Positions 2,479 through 33,859 of a stretch of DNA of 34,865 nt are shown here, piece after piece. Numbering within the stretch: the first letter of the stretch is position 1; each line of letters opens with the position of its first letter. The DNA comes from a virus: positions 1-34,865 of IMG/VR virus record IMGVR_UViG_3300028388_001230; one strand, written 5' to 3'. Position numbers and translations under genes: made by a program. Under the pieces are notes generated by a model. That model had not been told where the DNA came from. It searched no databases and saw only the letters and a list, made by a program, of their open reading frames with translations.

Positions 2479-2961
2479 TTAAATAGGTCCATTACTTTCT
2501 CCAAAGGCTCCAGCTGGCACCTCCCAGGTGTCCTGGATCATAGGCTCATCAAATACCATGGCCTTGGCTTTCTCTACCAGGTCCTGGTTGCTGCAGTTAT
2601 CATAAGGCATACCCAGAGCTGCCTGCTGGTTTACAGTGTTCTGCCTGTGGATGGTCTTACCAAAGTCCTGCTCATAGTCTGCTATCTTATCAAAGCCAGC
2701 CCGGTCTATCTTCTTAATACTGGCCCACTGGTGGATAGATCCAAAAATACACTTCATACAGGACAGCCTTCCCCATCCCAGCCTATAAGCAGGGTGTGGG
2801 TTTATCTTATGTTTGCGGATCACTGTCCAGACCTGGTGCTCTTCCCAGTCGTGCACTGGTCTCCATTGGATGGTGGTCCTGGTCTTAGTGGTGGTCTTAT
2901 GTACTTGGATGGTCTTATACTTAGCCCTGGCTGGGCTCTCCTCTGCCCTCTCTCCGGACAC
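2479..2961 (-). pseudogene. C-terminal half of the frameshifted PAPS-reductase-family protein
   Basis: This reading frame continues the family domain begun at 3479 but in the -1 frame. It carries the rest of the Rossmann-like core (RILVVSGERAEESPARAKYK, whose first residues lie upstream of any start), the HDWEEHQVWTVIRKHKI helix and a CMKC cysteine pair before FGS. The only in-frame initiator is a GTG at 2959-2961, which would begin inside a conserved beta strand, so independent translation to a folded protein looks unlikely. It is more likely the downstream fragment of one broken gene, about 333 aa when joined. Confidence 0.75.
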
Positions 2962-2981
2962 TACCAGGATCCTCTTACCTC

Positions 2982-3479
2982 TCAGGCGCTCCTGTTAGAT
3001 ATGACAGACACGCAGGCCTCAATTTTCAGGTAGCTGCTGCACCATCTTGTCCGGAGATCTGCAGAGACCTGTGGAAACATTTGCCTGGTATTCTTGGGAC
3101 CATTGCCTCCGGAGATCCCACACTCTATCAGGTTGTCCTCTCCATTGACTGGGTATTCAAAGCGCACCGGAGCGGTGGCCTGGTTATTTCTTAACATCTC
3201 CCTCTCAAATCCTCCCTCTCTCCAGGAGTAGTAAATAGGTAGATTAAAATGCTCAGCCACTTTCCTGCAGTAGTCCTCAGTGATGGGCCAGTCCATCAGG
3301 GTGGATCCCTCTCTGCCATCTACCAGGTGGTGCCATAGCTCCAGCTTCTCCCTGGGGCAGCCATCATCCAGCATGAAGAGCAGGCAGGCCAGGCTATCCT
3401 TACCTCCAGAAAAGGCTAATACTATTCTATCATAGTCGCTGTAATTGATTCGCTCCGGTGTGTGTGCCTCTGTTTTCAT
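2982..3479 (-). pseudogene. N-terminal half of PAPS reductase / adenylyl-PPi-loop family protein (frameshifted)
   Basis: The 165-aa fragment carries the PP-loop SGGKDS at residues 24-29, which grips the pyrophosphate of an ATP or PAPS-like substrate in phosphoadenylylsulfate reductases and related sulfur or nucleotide-activating enzymes. It also has the RTRWCSSYLKI segment typical of this superfamily. The frame stops at TGA 2982-2984 in ...SNRSA. One extra base just upstream (AACCAGGAG in place of AACAGGAG) would restore SNQERLRGKRILVVSGERAE and join it to 2479-2961. The ATG at 3479 has the CA-rich leader used by neighbours. Phage members of this family are often of uncertain substrate, so actual PAPS reduction is not assured. 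Confidence 0.8.
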
Positions 3480-3555: not shown

Positions 3556-3930
3556 CTACTTACTGCTCCCTAAAACTATTACCAGGACCCTATGCTCCTG
3601 ATCTGCATTGAGGGCATTTTCCAGATGACTCTCCAGCATATCAGCATAGGCAGGGTTGTCTGTACATCCATGTACCATCATTACAAATTGATCCTCTCTA
3701 GTGCTGACACCTATATAACCGTGCCAGGAGCTATACAGGCTATCTTTTGTAAGTGCATTAAAAATTATCCTCTCCTCTTTTTTGTTTACTGCAAATACCA
3801 GCCTTAGTCCAAAGTCCCTGGTAGCCCAGCGGATCTCTTTTTTAAGGTTAGCCTGTTCCATAAGTAGAGTTTCAAATGTTACTTTCTCTGTGTAACTCTC
3901 TGATTCTGTGTGTGTTGCTTGTGTTTTCAT
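3556..3930 (-). CDS. Hypothetical protein, first gene of the early operon
   Basis: A 124-aa soluble protein starting at ATG 3928-3930 with an AT-rich leader directly downstream of the candidate early promoter at 3965-3996. It has a helical N-terminal half (ETLLMEQANLKKEIRWATRD) and a beta-rich second half (LRLVFAVNKKEERIIFNAL, ...HGYIGVSTRED...). No catalytic motif or membrane segment is visible. As the first gene after the main early promoter it is a good candidate for a host-takeover or anti-defence protein, but nothing in the sequence shows that. Not recognised. Confidence 0.7.
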   Translation of the reverse strand: MKTQATHTESESYTEKVTFETLLMEQANLKKEIRWATRDFGLRLVFAVNKKEERIIFNALTKDSLYSSWHGYIGVSTREDQFVMMVHGCTDNPAYADMLESHLENALNADQEHRVLVIVLGSSK

Positions 3931-18468: not shown

Positions 18469-18620
18469 TTAGTTATCCGGTTTTCAGGTGTTTCCAGGAT
18501 CTTAATCTTTCCCTTTTTCTGCAGATCCTCAGCCTCAAAGTCTCTCAGGTGCATGGTCTGAGGTGGGACCAGGTAGCACCCGGAGTATGTAAAGGGCTCC
18601 ACTACCCTGCAGCGCTTCAT
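18465..18620 (-). CDS. Small protein (51 aa) between glycosyltransferase and connector
   Basis: A short gene with ATG at 18618-18620 overlapping the glycosyltransferase stop by one base (TGATG). Its TGA at 18465-18467 overlaps the connector ATG (ATGA). The product starts MKRCRVVEPFTYSGCYLVPP and ends basic and charged. Two Cys lie 12 residues apart. The beta-like N-terminus resembles the short proteins often seen next to head-tail connectors and tail adaptors. Both junctions are translationally coupled, which strongly supports a real gene. Function unknown. Confidence 0.75.
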   Translation of the reverse strand: MKRCRVVEPFTYSGCYLVPPQTMHLRDFEAEDLQKKGKIKILETPENRITK

Positions 18621-19603
18621 CACTTGGTCCTCCCCTTTATTGCTTTAATCATCAGGTCCTGGAGCACTTCCATTTGAGGATCAAATAGCTCCTCTAGCTC
18701 TGCAGCTCTTTTCCTGGCTGCATCGCTCCGCTCCTTATAGTAATCCTTATCCTCCAGGAGCTTTTTAATTTCATCCTCCCAGGCCTGCTGGTTGTCCAGT
18801 GGGTGGAAGATCCCGGCCTCTCCCAGGCTCTCCAGGAGCCCATCAGTGGGGTTGGCTATGGTAGGGATCCCTGAGGCTGCCGCTTCTATTGCAGTGCGCC
18901 CAAAGCTCTCATATTCGCTCGGCATCAGCAGGATCTTGGTCCTCTCGTAGGCCTTTTGGATCTTCGGAGTATTTTCTTTGTAGGTCACATTGGCCATCTT
19001 CTGCTTTTCCTGGTGGTAATAGCCACCCTTTACTGCCATGAATTTCACATCAGGCAGGGCCTTGGCCAGGTTGAAAAACATCTCAGATCCTTTGAGCTCA
19101 CAGTGGTTGATCAGGGTCACATGGCTGGCCCCTCCCCGGTTGGTCTTATAGTAATCCACCGGACAGGGTGGCTGCACTATACAGCTCTCCTTGTGGCCGT
19201 AAAAGGCCAGGCCTACCTGCTTGGTGTATTCAGAATTGTAGCACAATATAGACCTGTGGGCTATCTTCTGGATAGCGCTGTAGCGGTGTGTGTTGTGCTT
19301 GATAAACAAGGCCGGCATACCATCCACCTGGGGCCTCCGGATATTGTTTATAACCTTGCCCACCCGGTTTAAGTGACTGACTACGATATCAGCCCAGACA
19401 TAGTGGTTAATTACATGGATCTTGCCATACTCCGGGATTACCGGGATCCCTTCAAAGGTGTGCTCTTTTGCATCTCCTGCAGCTACCAGGATCTCATGGC
19501 CTTTAGCCTGGAGCCATTTCATCATATGGTGGACCATCCACTCAGCACCAGCATTGTGGTGGGGTGGGTATCCATGTACGTGCAGTAATATTTTCATTTT
19601 CAT
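18620..19603 (-). CDS. GT4-family (GT-B fold) glycosyltransferase
   Basis: A 327-aa retaining glycosyltransferase. The N-terminal domain opens with KILLHVHGYPPHHNAGAEW, the GT4 glycine-rich acceptor loop. The C-terminal domain carries the donor motif EYESFGRTAIEAAASGIPTI, whose Glu-x7-Glu pattern contacts the nucleotide sugar. It ends with the usual long helix (EDKDYYKERSDAARKRAAEL). No membrane span is evident. It lies with a SAM methyltransferase between the capsid and connector genes, a common cargo slot. It may glycosylate capsid or tail proteins, or host envelope glycans; the sequence does not say which. The start overlaps the methyltransferase stop (ATGA), and a second ATG two codons later has AGGAGG six bases upstream. 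Confidence 0.9.
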   Translation of the reverse strand: MKMKILLHVHGYPPHHNAGAEWMVHHMMKWLQAKGHEILVAAGDAKEHTFEGIPVIPEYGKIHVINHYVWADIVVSHLNRVGKVINNIRRPQVDGMPALFIKHNTHRYSAIQKIAHRSILCYNSEYTKQVGLAFYGHKESCIVQPPCPVDYYKTNRGGASHVTLINHCELKGSEMFFNLAKALPDVKFMAVKGGYYHQEKQKMANVTYKENTPKIQKAYERTKILLMPSEYESFGRTAIEAAASGIPTIANPTDGLLESLGEAGIFHPLDNQQAWEDEIKKLLEDKDYYKERSDAARKRAAELEELFDPQMEVLQDLMIKAIKGRTK

Positions 19604-20148
19604 CCTCCTGTTTTTAAATACTTATATACCAGCATTATCTCTCCCAGGACAGTGTGGTCTGCCGGCTTAACCAATTCCAGGCCGGCCTTTTCAGCCTGGC
19701 CATTGTTCCATAGGGATTTATGAACCTCGTATTTATTGCCCTTATAGGGTCCTTGCTTGATAAAGATCCCAGGGGTTGAGACCAGCAGGATCCCTGAGGG
19801 GCTTAGCCAGGTTTTGATCTTAGCTATCAGGGCCTGGCCTACAGCCTCATCCATGTGCTCAATCACATCAGCCATGATAATAACATCAAAGGTTCCAGGG
19901 GCGAACTCCACCAGGTTGACATCTTTGATAATTACCTCATGGTATAGCTCCCACATTGGATTCCTGTACTCTGGCCATGCTTCTATCCCTTTTATGACCG
20001 GGATCCATGGCATTAAGGTGGTAGCATAGTTATAGATCAGGGCCCCATACATGCCATTGCCTATACCTATATCCAGGACGCTCTGAGGCTTGCGCTTCAG
20101 GGTCTCCTCCAGGATAAAAGGGATCACTGCATGGCTGCTAATCGGCAT
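19600..20148 (-). CDS. Class I SAM-dependent methyltransferase
   Basis: A 182-aa Rossmann-fold methyltransferase. Motif I is VLDIGIGNGMYGALIYNY (SAM glycine loop DIGIGNG). A GIEAWPEYR segment sits at the acidic ribose-binding strand, and FDVIIMADVIEHMDE is motif IV with the IEHMDE block typical of small-molecule and sugar methyltransferases; SPSGILLVSTPG follows. It is coupled by ATGA to the glycosyltransferase, so the pair likely builds or decorates one glycan. It does not have the DPPY or PC motifs of DNA methyltransferases. A perfect hairpin terminator separates it from the capsid gene, so its expression should be lower than that of capsid. Confidence 0.88.
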   Translation of the reverse strand: MPISSHAVIPFILEETLKRKPQSVLDIGIGNGMYGALIYNYATTLMPWIPVIKGIEAWPEYRNPMWELYHEVIIKDVNLVEFAPGTFDVIIMADVIEHMDEAVGQALIAKIKTWLSPSGILLVSTPGIFIKQGPYKGNKYEVHKSLWNNGQAEKAGLELVKPADHTVLGEIMLVYKYLKTGG

Positions 20149-29471: not shown

Positions 29472-29485
29472 TTGTAAATTTACAA
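29472..29485. promoter_or_regulatory. 14-bp palindrome at the lipoprotein start
   Basis: TTGTAAATTTACAA is a perfect palindrome two bases upstream of the lipoprotein ATG, overlapping the sulfotransferase stop. Its minus strand also contains TAAATTTA, a seven-of-eight match to the Bacteroidota -7 element, without a good -33 box. It could be an operator for separate control of the lipoprotein. Confidence 0.35.
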
Positions 29486-30103
29486 TTTTTCACGTTCATA
29501 TCCTATCTGTTTAATTATCTCATAATGCTCCAGGTCCCTGGCCACCCATCCATCACAGGCCAGGGATGAGCCTCCTGTCATATCCTGCAACGGTTGCTTG
29601 TTTTGCCAGGTCCTAAACTCCATATGCTTTGCCCTGGGTGGTGGATCCTCCCAGTCAGGTGCCTGGAGAACTTTATCCAGGCTGGGTCTGGAGATCCCGG
29701 CCCATTTCATGCAGTCTATAAGATCCTGGCGGCTACTCATCAGGCGCTCATATTTGACCGGCAATATATCCAGCCGGCTGTGGGCCTCCTTCCAAGCTGT
29801 GGCATACTGCAGATAATCCTTGACCTGGTGGTGGTGGATATCCTTCCACTTTTCCCCAAAGCGTAAACGAATAGATCCAAAGATATCCCAGGGGTTTTTT
29901 ATGATCATGATCCGCTTACAGCCTGGGTATTCATGGATAGGTAGGCCTGTAAATTTCCAGACCAGGTGCTGGTAGCTGCCATCTACTATCCCAGGCGCAT
30001 AGGTTTCCCGAAGGATCTCCAGCACACCCTCCTGGGATCCTATAACCCTGCGGAGTATGCTGGTGCCACTGTGTGGAAATCCATTAATAACAATTTTATT
30101 CAT
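29480..30103 (-). CDS. Sulfotransferase (PAPS-dependent, P-loop fold)
   Basis: A 207-aa enzyme expected to move sulfate from PAPS to a sugar, peptide or other acceptor. The 5'-phosphosulfate loop is GFPHSGTSILRRVIG at residues 8-22 (the family's P-x-SGT-[ST] motif). The 3'-phosphate site is KNPWDIFGSIRLRF at 69-82, with the expected Arg/Lys-x-P-x-D...S...R spacing. The length is near the short prokaryotic members. No signal peptide is present. A PAPS-reductase-family gene sits in the same operon. Target unknown: host surface glycan or virion decoration are both possible. The gene is preceded by the same 16-base leader that precedes the 66-aa gene upstream. Confidence 0.9.
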   Translation of the reverse strand: MNKIVINGFPHSGTSILRRVIGSQEGVLEILRETYAPGIVDGSYQHLVWKFTGLPIHEYPGCKRIMIIKNPWDIFGSIRLRFGEKWKDIHHHQVKDYLQYATAWKEAHSRLDILPVKYERLMSSRQDLIDCMKWAGISRPSLDKVLQAPDWEDPPPRAKHMEFRTWQNKQPLQDMTGGSSLACDGWVARDLEHYEIIKQIGYEREKL

Positions 30104-31940: not shown

Positions 31941-32449
31941 GATGCAAAGGCCTCCCACTCCCTCTCTTTTAGATAATCCTCCGGGCTCTGGATATAGATC
32001 CCATACTCTGTTGCCAGCCTGAGGATCCTGTCAATAATCTGGCTGGTCTCTTCCATGGTGGCGCTGGCAAAGCTCCGGATCCTCTGAATGGGATCCCGGC
32101 CCGTTGGTGTTAGGATATTATCTGCCACCTCAACAAAGCCCACGGCATGTTTAACAATATCCCGGATCCTTTGCTTTGTCTCTTCATCTTCCACGGGATC
32201 CCCTTGCTCTTCCCAATACTTATAAAAGGCCGGCCAGATAGCAACATGCATATAGGCCAGCTGGCTCCTGGATTTCTCTACCTGGGGCCGGTTAAAGGTT
32301 GCATCCAGCAGGATCATCTGGCCATCATAGCTGGCTGTTACAAACTTATCCACTGCCTCGGACTTGACTGCAATAGGATCCAGCAGGACCAGGGCCCATC
32401 CTCTGCGGGGATCCTGGATTAATTTAGCTTTAGCTTTTACTTTCTTCAT
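31937..32449 (-). CDS. NinB-like recombination protein (tentative)
   Basis: A 170-aa protein. A beta-rich first third, then KSRSQLAYMHVAIWPAFYKY, then a helical end (SATMEETSQIIDRILRLATE, YGIYIQSPEDYL) follow the layout of NinB/Orf-type recombination mediators, which bind single-stranded DNA and help host RecA. The Arg-Ser-x-Gln patch and the ending with Glu-rich helix, Tyr-Gly and P-E-D match that pattern. Sequence similarity is weak by eye, so treat this as a hypothesis. It is coupled to both neighbours by ATGA overlaps, in the replication/recombination part of the early block. Confidence 0.5.
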   Translation of the reverse strand: MKKVKAKAKLIQDPRRGWALVLLDPIAVKSEAVDKFVTASYDGQMILLDATFNRPQVEKSRSQLAYMHVAIWPAFYKYWEEQGDPVEDEETKQRIRDIVKHAVGFVEVADNILTPTGRDPIQRIRSFASATMEETSQIIDRILRLATEYGIYIQSPEDYLKEREWEAFAS

Positions 32450-32838
32450 AATTGTGTTTTAAAGATTTGTAGATGTTTAAGTATCTCGGTCTCAAATTTA
32501 TTCAGACCAATAAAGTGATGGTATAATGAATAGATAAAGGGCTCGGCCTTTACATGCACCATGATAGGGCTTTTCATGCATAGCCTCCCTATCTCCTGCT
32601 CACTGCTTACCTCCCTGGCCTTGTAGATCTTATCCTCTGTATCTGTGTCCTTCATCCGGATCCATGGCAGATCCTCCAGGGTGCCATGCTCATAGATATA
32701 TTCAAATACATACCGGGGAAGAGCTGCCACCCCATAGGGCTGATTGTAGGGCATAGACAAAATAAAACAGGCAGCAGCTGCCCTGTCTCCCAGGGTCATC
32801 ATCCGCTTGGATAGTTTACTTTCCCAGATCCTATCCAT
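32446..32838 (-). CDS. Hypothetical protein downstream of the replication initiator
   Basis: A 130-aa protein if it starts at MDRIWESKLSKRMMTLGDRA (ATG 32836-32838, which overlaps the DUF1376 stop by 8 nt). An ATG 29 codons upstream (32925) is also open and would overlap the initiator by 95 nt. The core is helical with Trp/Tyr/Met clusters (AACFILSMPYNQPYGVAALP, and FIYSLYHHFIGLNKFE). No known motif. Its tight coupling to the initiator suggests a helper of replication, such as a helicase loader, but it lacks a P-loop. Confidence 0.65.
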   Translation of the reverse strand: MDRIWESKLSKRMMTLGDRAAAACFILSMPYNQPYGVAALPRYVFEYIYEHGTLEDLPWIRMKDTDTEDKIYKAREVSSEQEIGRLCMKSPIMVHVKAEPFIYSLYHHFIGLNKFETEILKHLQIFKTQL

Positions 32839-33859
32839 TGCCCAAAAGATTAGATAAGCGCTGAGGCCCTTTTCCGGACCGTTTAGAGCCTTTACCTTCC
32901 GGTGGTATGTTCGGACCACTGCCACCCTTTGGCGTTAAATTTGCCCCGTTTCCTGCCTCCTGGGAGCCTGTTTGTTCCTTTTTGGCTTTCTGCCTCAGGT
33001 ATTCCTCCCTGGATATGGCCGTAGGGGATGGCTTACCAAAGCCCTCCGGTGGTGGGTTGTTTACCTTGGAGGATCCGCTGGCCTCTGGCCCCTTGCTTAC
33101 CTGGTTGGCTGCCTGGTGGGCCTGCATCTCTTTTGGGTCCAGCTCAAAGATCCCTTTCCAGCCCATCTCAATAGATCTTAAAAGGATCCGCTCTGCTATC
33201 TTGGGGTTGTTCCTGGAGTGCTTTACCAGGTTGCCAGCTGTTTGCTTAGCTGCCAGCTCTGTATAAGGAGATCCCCAGGCCCGGATCCTGTAGCTGATAA
33301 ACTGCAGCAGGGCATCCCTTACCTGAGCACTTTCAACCAGTGGGCTCTTTTTCTTTTCCAGGGAGTCCAGTGCAATTTTATGCAGCTTCAGATCCTTGGG
33401 CTCTCCCCTCACACTCCCCTCTTTATTTTTATCTTTATTTATATCTATATTTTCATTTTCCATATGCTTACCACTAGCTTTGCTAGTGCTTAACATATGC
33501 TTAGCACTAGCTTTTTTAGTTAATTTATTGTTATTCAATTCATTAAGGGTACCATCGGAGTGCTTCAGGATCCGGGGCCCTTGTGCATTTTTGCGCCTGG
33601 ACTCAGAAAAGCTCCTCCTCTTCTGGATCTCATCTAGCATCCGCTTATTATAGATTTTCCCATCCTCCTGGATAAACTTTTCCAGGATTATAGGATTGTT
33701 GTCACAGATCCTCTTGACTGTTTCCGCTTCCAGGTAGCCACCTCTTTGATGCTGAAGGCAGAGCAGTTTAATATACTGCCCTGCCTCTGCATCTGTCATA
33801 TGAGCCGACCCGGTTAGAAAGTCAGAGGTATAAAATAGTATGGCTGGATCTTTACCCAT
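32831..33859 (-). CDS. DUF1376-type replication initiation protein (lambda O-like)
   Basis: A 342-aa protein. The N-terminal DUF1376 domain (residues ~3-90, PAILFYTSDFLTGSAHMTDA, GQYIKLLCLQHQRGGYL) is typical of phage initiators such as YdaU and lambda O relatives. A low-complexity linker with repeats of the type SKASGKHMENEN follows at ~110-145. A further helical domain and a Pro/Gly/Ser-rich tail make up the rest. It would bind the origin and recruit host replication proteins; no polymerase, primase or helicase gene is present in the genome, so host enzymes must copy it. The linker-coding DNA contains the putative origin described at 33461-33526. Confidence 0.85.
   Translation of the reverse strand: MGKDPAILFYTSDFLTGSAHMTDAEAGQYIKLLCLQHQRGGYLEAETVKRICDNNPIILEKFIQEDGKIYNKRMLDEIQKRRSFSESRRKNAQGPRILKHSDGTLNELNNNKLTKKASAKHMLSTSKASGKHMENENIDINKDKNKEGSVRGEPKDLKLHKIALDSLEKKKSPLVESAQVRDALLQFISYRIRAWGSPYTELAAKQTAGNLVKHSRNNPKIAERILLRSIEMGWKGIFELDPKEMQAHQAANQVSKGPEASGSSKVNNPPPEGFGKPSPTAISREEYLRQKAKKEQTGSQEAGNGANLTPKGGSGPNIPPEGKGSKRSGKGPQRLSNLLGNG
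33461..33526. other. Candidate replication origin: iteron-like repeats plus AT-rich stretch inside the initiator gene
   Basis: Two 33-bp units beginning CATATGCTTA lie in tandem (33461-33493 and 33494-33526); 20 of their first 21 bases agree. Within them the half-site TTAnCACTAGC occurs three times in alternating orientation (33468-33478, inverted 33482-33493, 33501-33511). The first two form a perfect palindrome CACTAGC-TTT-GCTAGTG at 33472-33488. An AT-rich run (33420-33460) flanks them. Lambda also has its origin iterons and an AT-rich element inside gene O, at the same inter-domain place. Confidence 0.6.

Follow-up and report, generated by a model that had tools for sequence, protein, structure and literature searches.

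Our analysis indicates that positions 33422-33510 of the viral DNA stretch studied here (34,865 nucleotides; the whole stretch is referred to below as the window) are a putative phage replication origin, placed in the linker-coding part of the gene for its own DUF1376 initiator where it would provide sites for iteron binding, array melting and helicase loading. Judging from sequence comparisons, we give this reading a probability of about 87%. The element has a two-part anatomy, is conserved at the level of DNA, is linked almost exclusively to DUF1376 genes and is able to sit outside the gene. No description of such an element was found in literature searches on DUF1376 and replication origins, on replication of YdaU and the Rac prophage, and on replication of Lin1244 phages, and it is best read as an in-gene origin of a kind without description in the literature searched. 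The source record (34,865 bases) carries a direct repeat of 99 bp at both ends, so the window is probably a whole, circularly assembled genome. Its likely genes lie on the minus strand.

On the coding (minus) strand the element consists of two abutting parts, namely five 11-bp iterons (33456-33510) and an AT-rich array of NNANNT hexamers (33422-33460). The first four iterons are followed by the CATATG of the fifth and then, without a gap, by the hexamers (Table 1).

Table 1. Coordinates of the initiator gene and of the parts of the putative origin
Feature	Position	Strand	Remarks
DUF1376-type replication initiator gene	32831..33859	-	342 aa; PF07120, PHROG 9327 and structure-model matches
N-terminal domain, predicted DNA-binding winged helix, likely iteron reader	33575..33832	-	residues ~10-95; AlphaFold2 pLDDT ~90
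Possible degenerate outermost 11-mer, AACTAAAAAAG	33511..33521	-	by eye, weak
Iteron 1, CTAGTGCTAAG	33500..33510	-	TRF period 11
Iteron 2, CATATGTTAAG	33489..33499	-	CATATG = family core
Iteron 3, CACTAGCAAAG	33478..33488	-	CACTAGC iteron before array in 35/228 DUF1376 genes
Iteron 4, CTAGTGGTAAG	33467..33477	-	
Iteron 5, CATATGGAAAA	33456..33466	-	its CATATG adjoins the hexamer array; junction CATATG|GAAAAT also in relatives
Hexamer array (NNANNT)n, 13 codons, proposed unwinding element	33422..33460	-	GAAAAT GAAAAT ATAGAT ATAAAT AAAGAT AAAAAT AAA
C-terminal part	32831..33397	-	helical domain ~155-235, AlphaFold2 pLDDT ~80

The first-pass annotation had proposed tandem 33-bp units in this region, and the repeat is indeed present as two units (33461-33487 and 33494-33520) that lie 33 bp apart and are 89% identical over 27 bp. 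Repetition at a lag of 33 exceeds chance (26/33 matches, p = 5e-5 in 20,000 synonymous shuffles that preserved protein sequence and codon usage). Taken by itself, lag 11 does not reach significance in the window (27/55, p = 0.14, 20,000 synonymous shuffles); nevertheless, we read the unit as 11 bp, and the 33-bp period as three iterons, because lag 11 is strong in the relatives (z = 11.8, see below). Tandem Repeats Finder (TRF) reported a period of 11 for 33466-33513 (4.4 copies). The perfect palindrome CACTAGC-TTT-GCTAGTG, also part of the first-pass annotation, lies at 33472-33488, and three of the four CACTAGC words of the window fall within 40 bp. The three proposed TTAnCACTAGC half-sites were confirmed only in part: two are exact, and the third (TAAGCACTAGC at 33482-33492 on the opposite strand) has one mismatch.

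The adjoining AT-rich run of the same annotation is real (36/40 A/T), and it is more than a run, since it forms an ordered hexamer array. The interval 33420-33459 is the sole 40-nt segment of the 34,865 bp with 36 A/T, and thus the most AT-rich one, and TRF assigned a period of 6/12 to 33420-33453. The third bases of the 13 codons alternate between A and T, a run which 20,000 synonymous shuffles rarely reproduced (p = 2.5e-4) and which is the longest among the 50 window genes tested (the next longest being 8). The match to DnaA boxes was at chance level in the window (TTATNCACA with at most one mismatch: 33 found, 27.6 expected) and no such box, with up to one mismatch, occurs inside the element. 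GC skew and third-position skew showed no turn anywhere in the window; every gene counted is on the same strand, which leaves this test without power and makes skew uninformative about the origin.

The product of the gene matches PF07120 at E = 1.2e-5 and 26 bits, i.e. below the gathering cut-off of 30.1 (YdaU of E. coli scores 92 bits with this model), and PHROG 9327, 'primosomal protein', at E = 5e-9. When the structure model of the initiator was used to search BFVD, the matches with E <= 0.001 included DUF1376 proteins, and among the best ones were several designated DUF1376 together with Lin1244/Lin1753-like. A comparable search of the PDB for the fold gave no clear match, and no sequence relatives of alignment A3 or of lambda O were found among PDB entries. 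In VIA the matches to the initiator model covered mostly the helical C-terminal domain; those of the N-terminal domain to the ORC winged helix (Z 4.5) and the DnaD N-terminal domain (Z 3.6) were weak and within the stated noise range of the tool. The linker joining the two domains is predicted by AlphaFold2 to be disordered (pLDDT mostly <50). By analogy with YdaU, the C-terminal part is likely to bind a partner, either a helicase or its loader. None was recognised among the window proteins searched with Pfam and PHROG, and a search with the product of the downstream gene (32446-32925) found no relatives.

Relatives of the initiator came from three scans, two covering viral contigs and the third genome contigs (L005-L228), to which L001-L003 were added. 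A match to the domain model was obtained for 228 of 229 sequences (L210 gave none). Removal of L004 (a duplicate of the window), of sequences with <45 codons after the domain and of partial domains left 215, from which 65 representatives were taken, one per 75% identity of the N-terminal domain. In 58 of these 65 the linker contains an array in which the third bases alternate over seven or more codons. Over whole genes, alternating runs of at least 8 were found in 56/65, and the alternation was significant (p <= 0.01 against synonymous shuffles) in 43/65. Runs of at least nine codons occurred in 48 of 60 DUF1376 representatives (the 64 other than the window, less four not picked by the ORF caller) vs 1 of 263 flanking ORFs. 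One representative (L209) has a short array with only two clean hexamers, and in another (L207) no element was found. The finding that had been named beforehand as speaking against an origin here, namely relatives that keep the initiator but have non-repetitive DNA in the linker, thus did not emerge; moreover, three DUF1376 genes that lack an in-linker element have the element elsewhere in the genome.

Within the 75 bp upstream of the array, the relatives show repetition at lags of 11 (z = 11.8), 22 (z = 7.4) and 33 (z = 5.7) relative to synonymous shuffles. Where CATATG occurs in frame (39 representatives), core repeats follow one another mostly at 11-bp and sometimes at 12-bp steps, and the last copy adjoins the array. 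The iteron group nearest to that of the window is formed by relatives with CACTAGC before CATATG. DUF1376 genes of Pseudomonadota, inspected by eye and standing outside all counts, also have linkers with repeats resembling iterons and with period-6 tandems that differ in sequence, e.g. (GACAGT)n, (AACCAG)n and (CATAGC)n; several of these genes have none. In a side observation, the DUF1376 gene of L002 (2998-3561 and onward) stops early and the next frame seems to continue the C-terminus of the replication protein, which makes a frameshift likely.

It could be argued that a flexible, charged dipeptide linker (ENENEN, KHM words) was selected as protein, and that the DNA repeats merely mirror its residues. 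The predicted disorder of the linker fits this explanation, as do other dipeptide repeats (HS, NQ, DS, EG) in the linkers of GC-rich relatives. The conservation of the codons points the other way. Over the opening ten codons of the array, the most frequent base reaches 0.774, 0.715 and 0.949 at positions 1, 2 and 3, respectively (counting was anchored on the last CATATG, did not require alternation and left out the 26 of 65 representatives without an in-frame CATATG), whereas the N-terminal domain of the same genes gives 0.686, 0.775 and 0.523. The wobble base is hence the most conserved codon position of the array, which is the reverse of normal coding. Codon choice also tracks the phase of the array. 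Residues able to end in A or T follow it (67 and 4 against 8 and 58; p = 1.7e-24, with p = 0.012 for the N-terminal domain as a control), and although these p-values are too small, because the sequences share descent, the effect of array phase is nonetheless large. Isoleucine illustrates this well, being encoded by ATA 28 times at even places and by ATT 31 times at odd places, with 2 exceptions. Furthermore, 31 of the 39 genes have CATATG in two or more frames, which means that the same DNA word encodes different residues. Non-coding copies retain both iterons and array (see below), which contradicts this explanation, and a protein-level origin of the repeats appears highly improbable. The relatives show instead that selection acts on the DNA of the element. 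The repeated linker words to which the first-pass annotation drew attention are present, as ASAKHM and ASGKHM, and its view that the linker is shaped by the DNA repeats is upheld by the wobble conservation, the phase-following codons and the several frames of CATATG.

The element can be located from DNA alone. A pattern which makes no reference to protein (CATATG-N5-CATATG followed by four NNANNT) matched at least 120 stretches in viral contigs. Among the 80 loci listed, 75 lay inside DUF1376 ORFs, 3 at contig ends, where we read them as the rest of cut-off DUF1376-type genes, and 2 in non-coding DNA. A looser pattern (also at least 120 stretches) placed 66 of the 80 viral loci listed inside DUF1376 ORFs, 3 at contig ends and one, L379, in non-coding DNA; the other 10 were judged to be chance matches because no second CATATG lies upstream. 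Within L001-L228, 270 of 278 strand-wise matches to arrays of at least six hexamers fell inside the DUF1376 frame, and those outside belonged to the duplicate of the window, L181, L187 and L199. In L199 the DUF1376 frame is shortened and the array follows the stop. The linkers of L181 and L187 lack the element, which is found just upstream of the gene with CATATG words 11 or 12 bp apart. In the phage record G555 (36,040 bp) the DUF1376 gene at 3595-3873 has no element, and a single non-coding copy is located at 33128, about 6.5 kb from the gene if the record is circular. When named phages were searched for the repeat at the DNA level, the matches listed had E ~6, which is chance level.

The non-coding copies show that the element is separable from the protein. 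Six non-coding copies keep the hexamer pattern over 47 hexamers; the counting method itself fixes position 3 as A and position 6 as T, and the free positions are also restricted, with A/G at position 1 (47/47), A at position 4 (0.94) and A/T at position 5 (0.98). Non-coding copies in phage-like contigs were seen at 11527 of L379, 3687 of L445 and 2716 of L481, those of L379 and L445 lying near terminase-like genes. A full copy with four CATATG words 11 bp apart and ten hexamers was observed on the minus strand near 3763 of L479 (G551:C7:54500-61500; L355 was noted alongside), flanked by a gene that resembles one for alanyl-tRNA synthetase and by another for a large repeat protein; a small HTH gene is close by. 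No DUF1376 gene was found in this 7-kb stretch. The copies of L479 and L481 are orphans without a nearby DUF1376 gene. Is the L479 copy a relic, or does it belong to a satellite that borrows a phage initiator?

Two other functions were weighed. The element might be an operator, used for autoregulation of the initiator or for early transcription: iteron-like repeats can be operators, and the location just upstream of the gene in L181 and L187 would suit such a role. We consider this very unlikely, since in 75 of the 80 loci listed the element is inside the gene rather than at a promoter, the copy of G555 lies kilobases away from the initiator gene, and an operator leaves the ordered AT-rich array abutting the iterons unexplained. 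We give very little credence to a packaging (pac) or recombination site that happens to reside in the replication gene of most phages. The terminase-like neighbours of the L379 and L445 copies are what one might expect of it, but with 75 of the 80 listed loci in DUF1376 genes the element tracks the initiator and not the terminase, and pac sites are not known to resemble an AT-rich array next to iterons.

A replication origin accounts best for these features. We infer that the N-terminal domain binds the iterons, that the array melts, that a helicase is loaded and that replication starts at the element. According to the proposed mechanism, the winged-helix N-terminal domain would bind the five iterons, each 11 bp, i.e. 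one helical turn, apart, a spacing that would place all bound domains on the same side of the helix. The bound complex would adjoin and open the hexamer array, acting on it as an ordered unwinding element, and the C-terminal domain would bring in the helicase or its loader. Matches to DnaB were detected at most 2.5 kb downstream in 62 of 195 loci, which correspond to only 8 representatives, and helicase or DnaC-like genes follow the DUF1376 genes of Pseudomonas phage UFJF_PfDIW6, Acinetobacter phage IME285 and Leptolyngbya phage Lbo-JY16.

Iteron cores other than CATATG are repeated at the same place in some relatives (GGTAWTACC, GGCAWTGCC, AACCAWTGGTT, GCTATGCTT and AACCCA). On a poorly resolved tree of the N-terminal domain, core types (labelled by our own regular expressions, with 8 'other' rows left out) change 12 times vs a shuffled mean of 17.8 (0 of 200 shuffles were as low), a clustering that is expected from descent alone. 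It fits an N-terminal domain that reads the iteron, without proving it.

AT-richness does not account for the alternation of A and T every three bases. By analogy with DnaA-trios or the DnaD element, our preferred guess is that the array is recognised stepwise as single strand. We would go further only tentatively, at somewhat less than even odds: the array may represent a new origin code, comparable to the DnaA-trio except for its period, in which A and T take turns at three-base intervals and which the initiator or the helicase loader would read, 3 or 6 nt at a time, once the DNA has melted. Such a code would be portable, passing from gene to non-coding DNA or the reverse without loss of register to the 11-bp iterons, and the sequence of the iterons would change with the DNA-binding domain of the initiator.

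The closest functional parallel is the origin of lambda. In lambdoid and Stx phages, as outlined in the relevant passages of PMC7466680, the origin lies within gene O and consists of iterons followed by an AT-rich tract. The window resembles it in that the repeats lie in the middle of the initiator gene, covering the linker between the domains at residues 10-95 and 155-235, and in that the AT-rich tract (36/40 A/T) is located directly 3' of the iterons in gene direction, adjoining iteron 5. The two differ in several respects. Lambda has four 18-bp iterons whose starts are 20, 24 and 23 bp apart, in contrast to the five 11-bp iterons of the window, spaced by one turn, and its AT-rich tract contains no ordered hexamer array. 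Moreover, the O proteins of lambda and Gifsy-1 carry PF04492, to which the window initiator gave no match at E up to 1. The idea of a lambda-O-like, in-linker origin therefore stands as the best explanation as far as placement and the order of iterons and AT-rich DNA are concerned, with the correction that the protein is DUF1376-type and without PF04492. The element would work like the lambda origin, yet is not a member of that group, as the initiator family, iteron length and array are all different.

YdaU of the E. coli Rac prophage shares with the window a DUF1376 N-terminal domain, TGTTCAAACA-type repeats in the linker and a short run (AAA GAT ACA GAT AAA GAT), although its iteron sequence is different and its array shorter and less regular. 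No origin was found to be described for YdaU in the literature searched on this protein and on the Rac prophage and replication. With YdaU as the query, its residues 155-267 align with the C-terminal part of phage O proteins, e.g. those of SPN3UB and Gifsy-1, and in Gifsy-1 O this part is preceded by the O DNA-binding domain PF04492. YdaU thus pairs a DUF1376 N-terminal domain with an O-type C-terminus, which means that DUF1376 occupies the place of the origin-binding domain of lambda O. The 80 loci of the YdaU scan (L275-L354) were useless for assessing diversity because they are near-identical and E. coli-type. These loci share the N-terminal domain and the linker repeats, and a different C-terminal sequence sets in immediately behind the array, giving the impression that the origin is a boundary for recombination.

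Other systems offer partial parallels. The lactococcal phage TP901-1 has its replication origin inside the rep gene. Its product is annotated as an experimentally shown replication protein, and the gene contains repeats and an AT-rich stretch; the protein carries HTH_36 and DnaB_2 instead of DUF1376, and there is no strict hexamer array. A search with PF09681 for other initiators matched 8 of 249 genomes, of which those inspected were not phage-initiator-like except L259, and the comparison gave no result because the relevant stretch of L259 is masked with N.

In the B. subtilis oriC, the excerpted account in PMC10797057 describes DnaA-trios as short-period elements in the unwinding region, next to double-strand sites and read as single strand. 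The DnaD recognition element comprises at least two TnnT motifs that share a strand of the unwinding region, according to the corresponding section of PMC10201434. As far as these sections describe them, both resemble the window in having elements of short period within the unwinding region, beside or across from double-strand sites, and differ from it in being composed of period-3 units (DnaA-trio) or TnnT pairs (DnaD); the array of the window has a period of 6, A and T taking turns at 3-nt intervals. An unwinding element of the DnaA-trio type was considered and rejected, as the period is 6 and not 3 and the element contains no DnaA boxes. In iteron plasmids and ori2 of V. cholerae, as presented in the pertinent part of PMC10797057, the iterons adjoin an AT-rich region, and the initiator binds the repeats of this region in single-stranded form. 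They differ in their initiators and repeats, and the same part of that paper does not describe the origin as lying within the initiator gene.

The two-part element is spread across a large, little-studied phage family, usually within the DUF1376 gene and sometimes outside it. DUF1376 is listed in Pfam as a 'protein of unknown function', although its genes are common in phages and prophages, and the element gives this family a candidate role as an origin-binding initiator. It may also serve as a marker for locating phage origins from DNA alone, and ydaU of the E. coli Rac prophage is a possible laboratory model. The element is moreover a clear case of DNA function overriding coding, in which wobble bases beat amino-acid-setting bases in conservation. 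Finally, the ordered array makes it testable whether unwinding depends on AT-richness alone or on stepwise reading of a single strand.

Several other genes of the window, all on the minus strand, deserve mention. Two ORFs within 2479-3479 (2982-3479 and 2479-2961, the latter matching PHROG 424) look like halves of one PAPS reductase-like gene. As judged by eye from the translations, glycosyltransferase-like and methyltransferase-like genes lie inside the head gene cluster (18620-20148), and a sulfotransferase-like protein, also recognised by eye, is encoded at 29480-30103.
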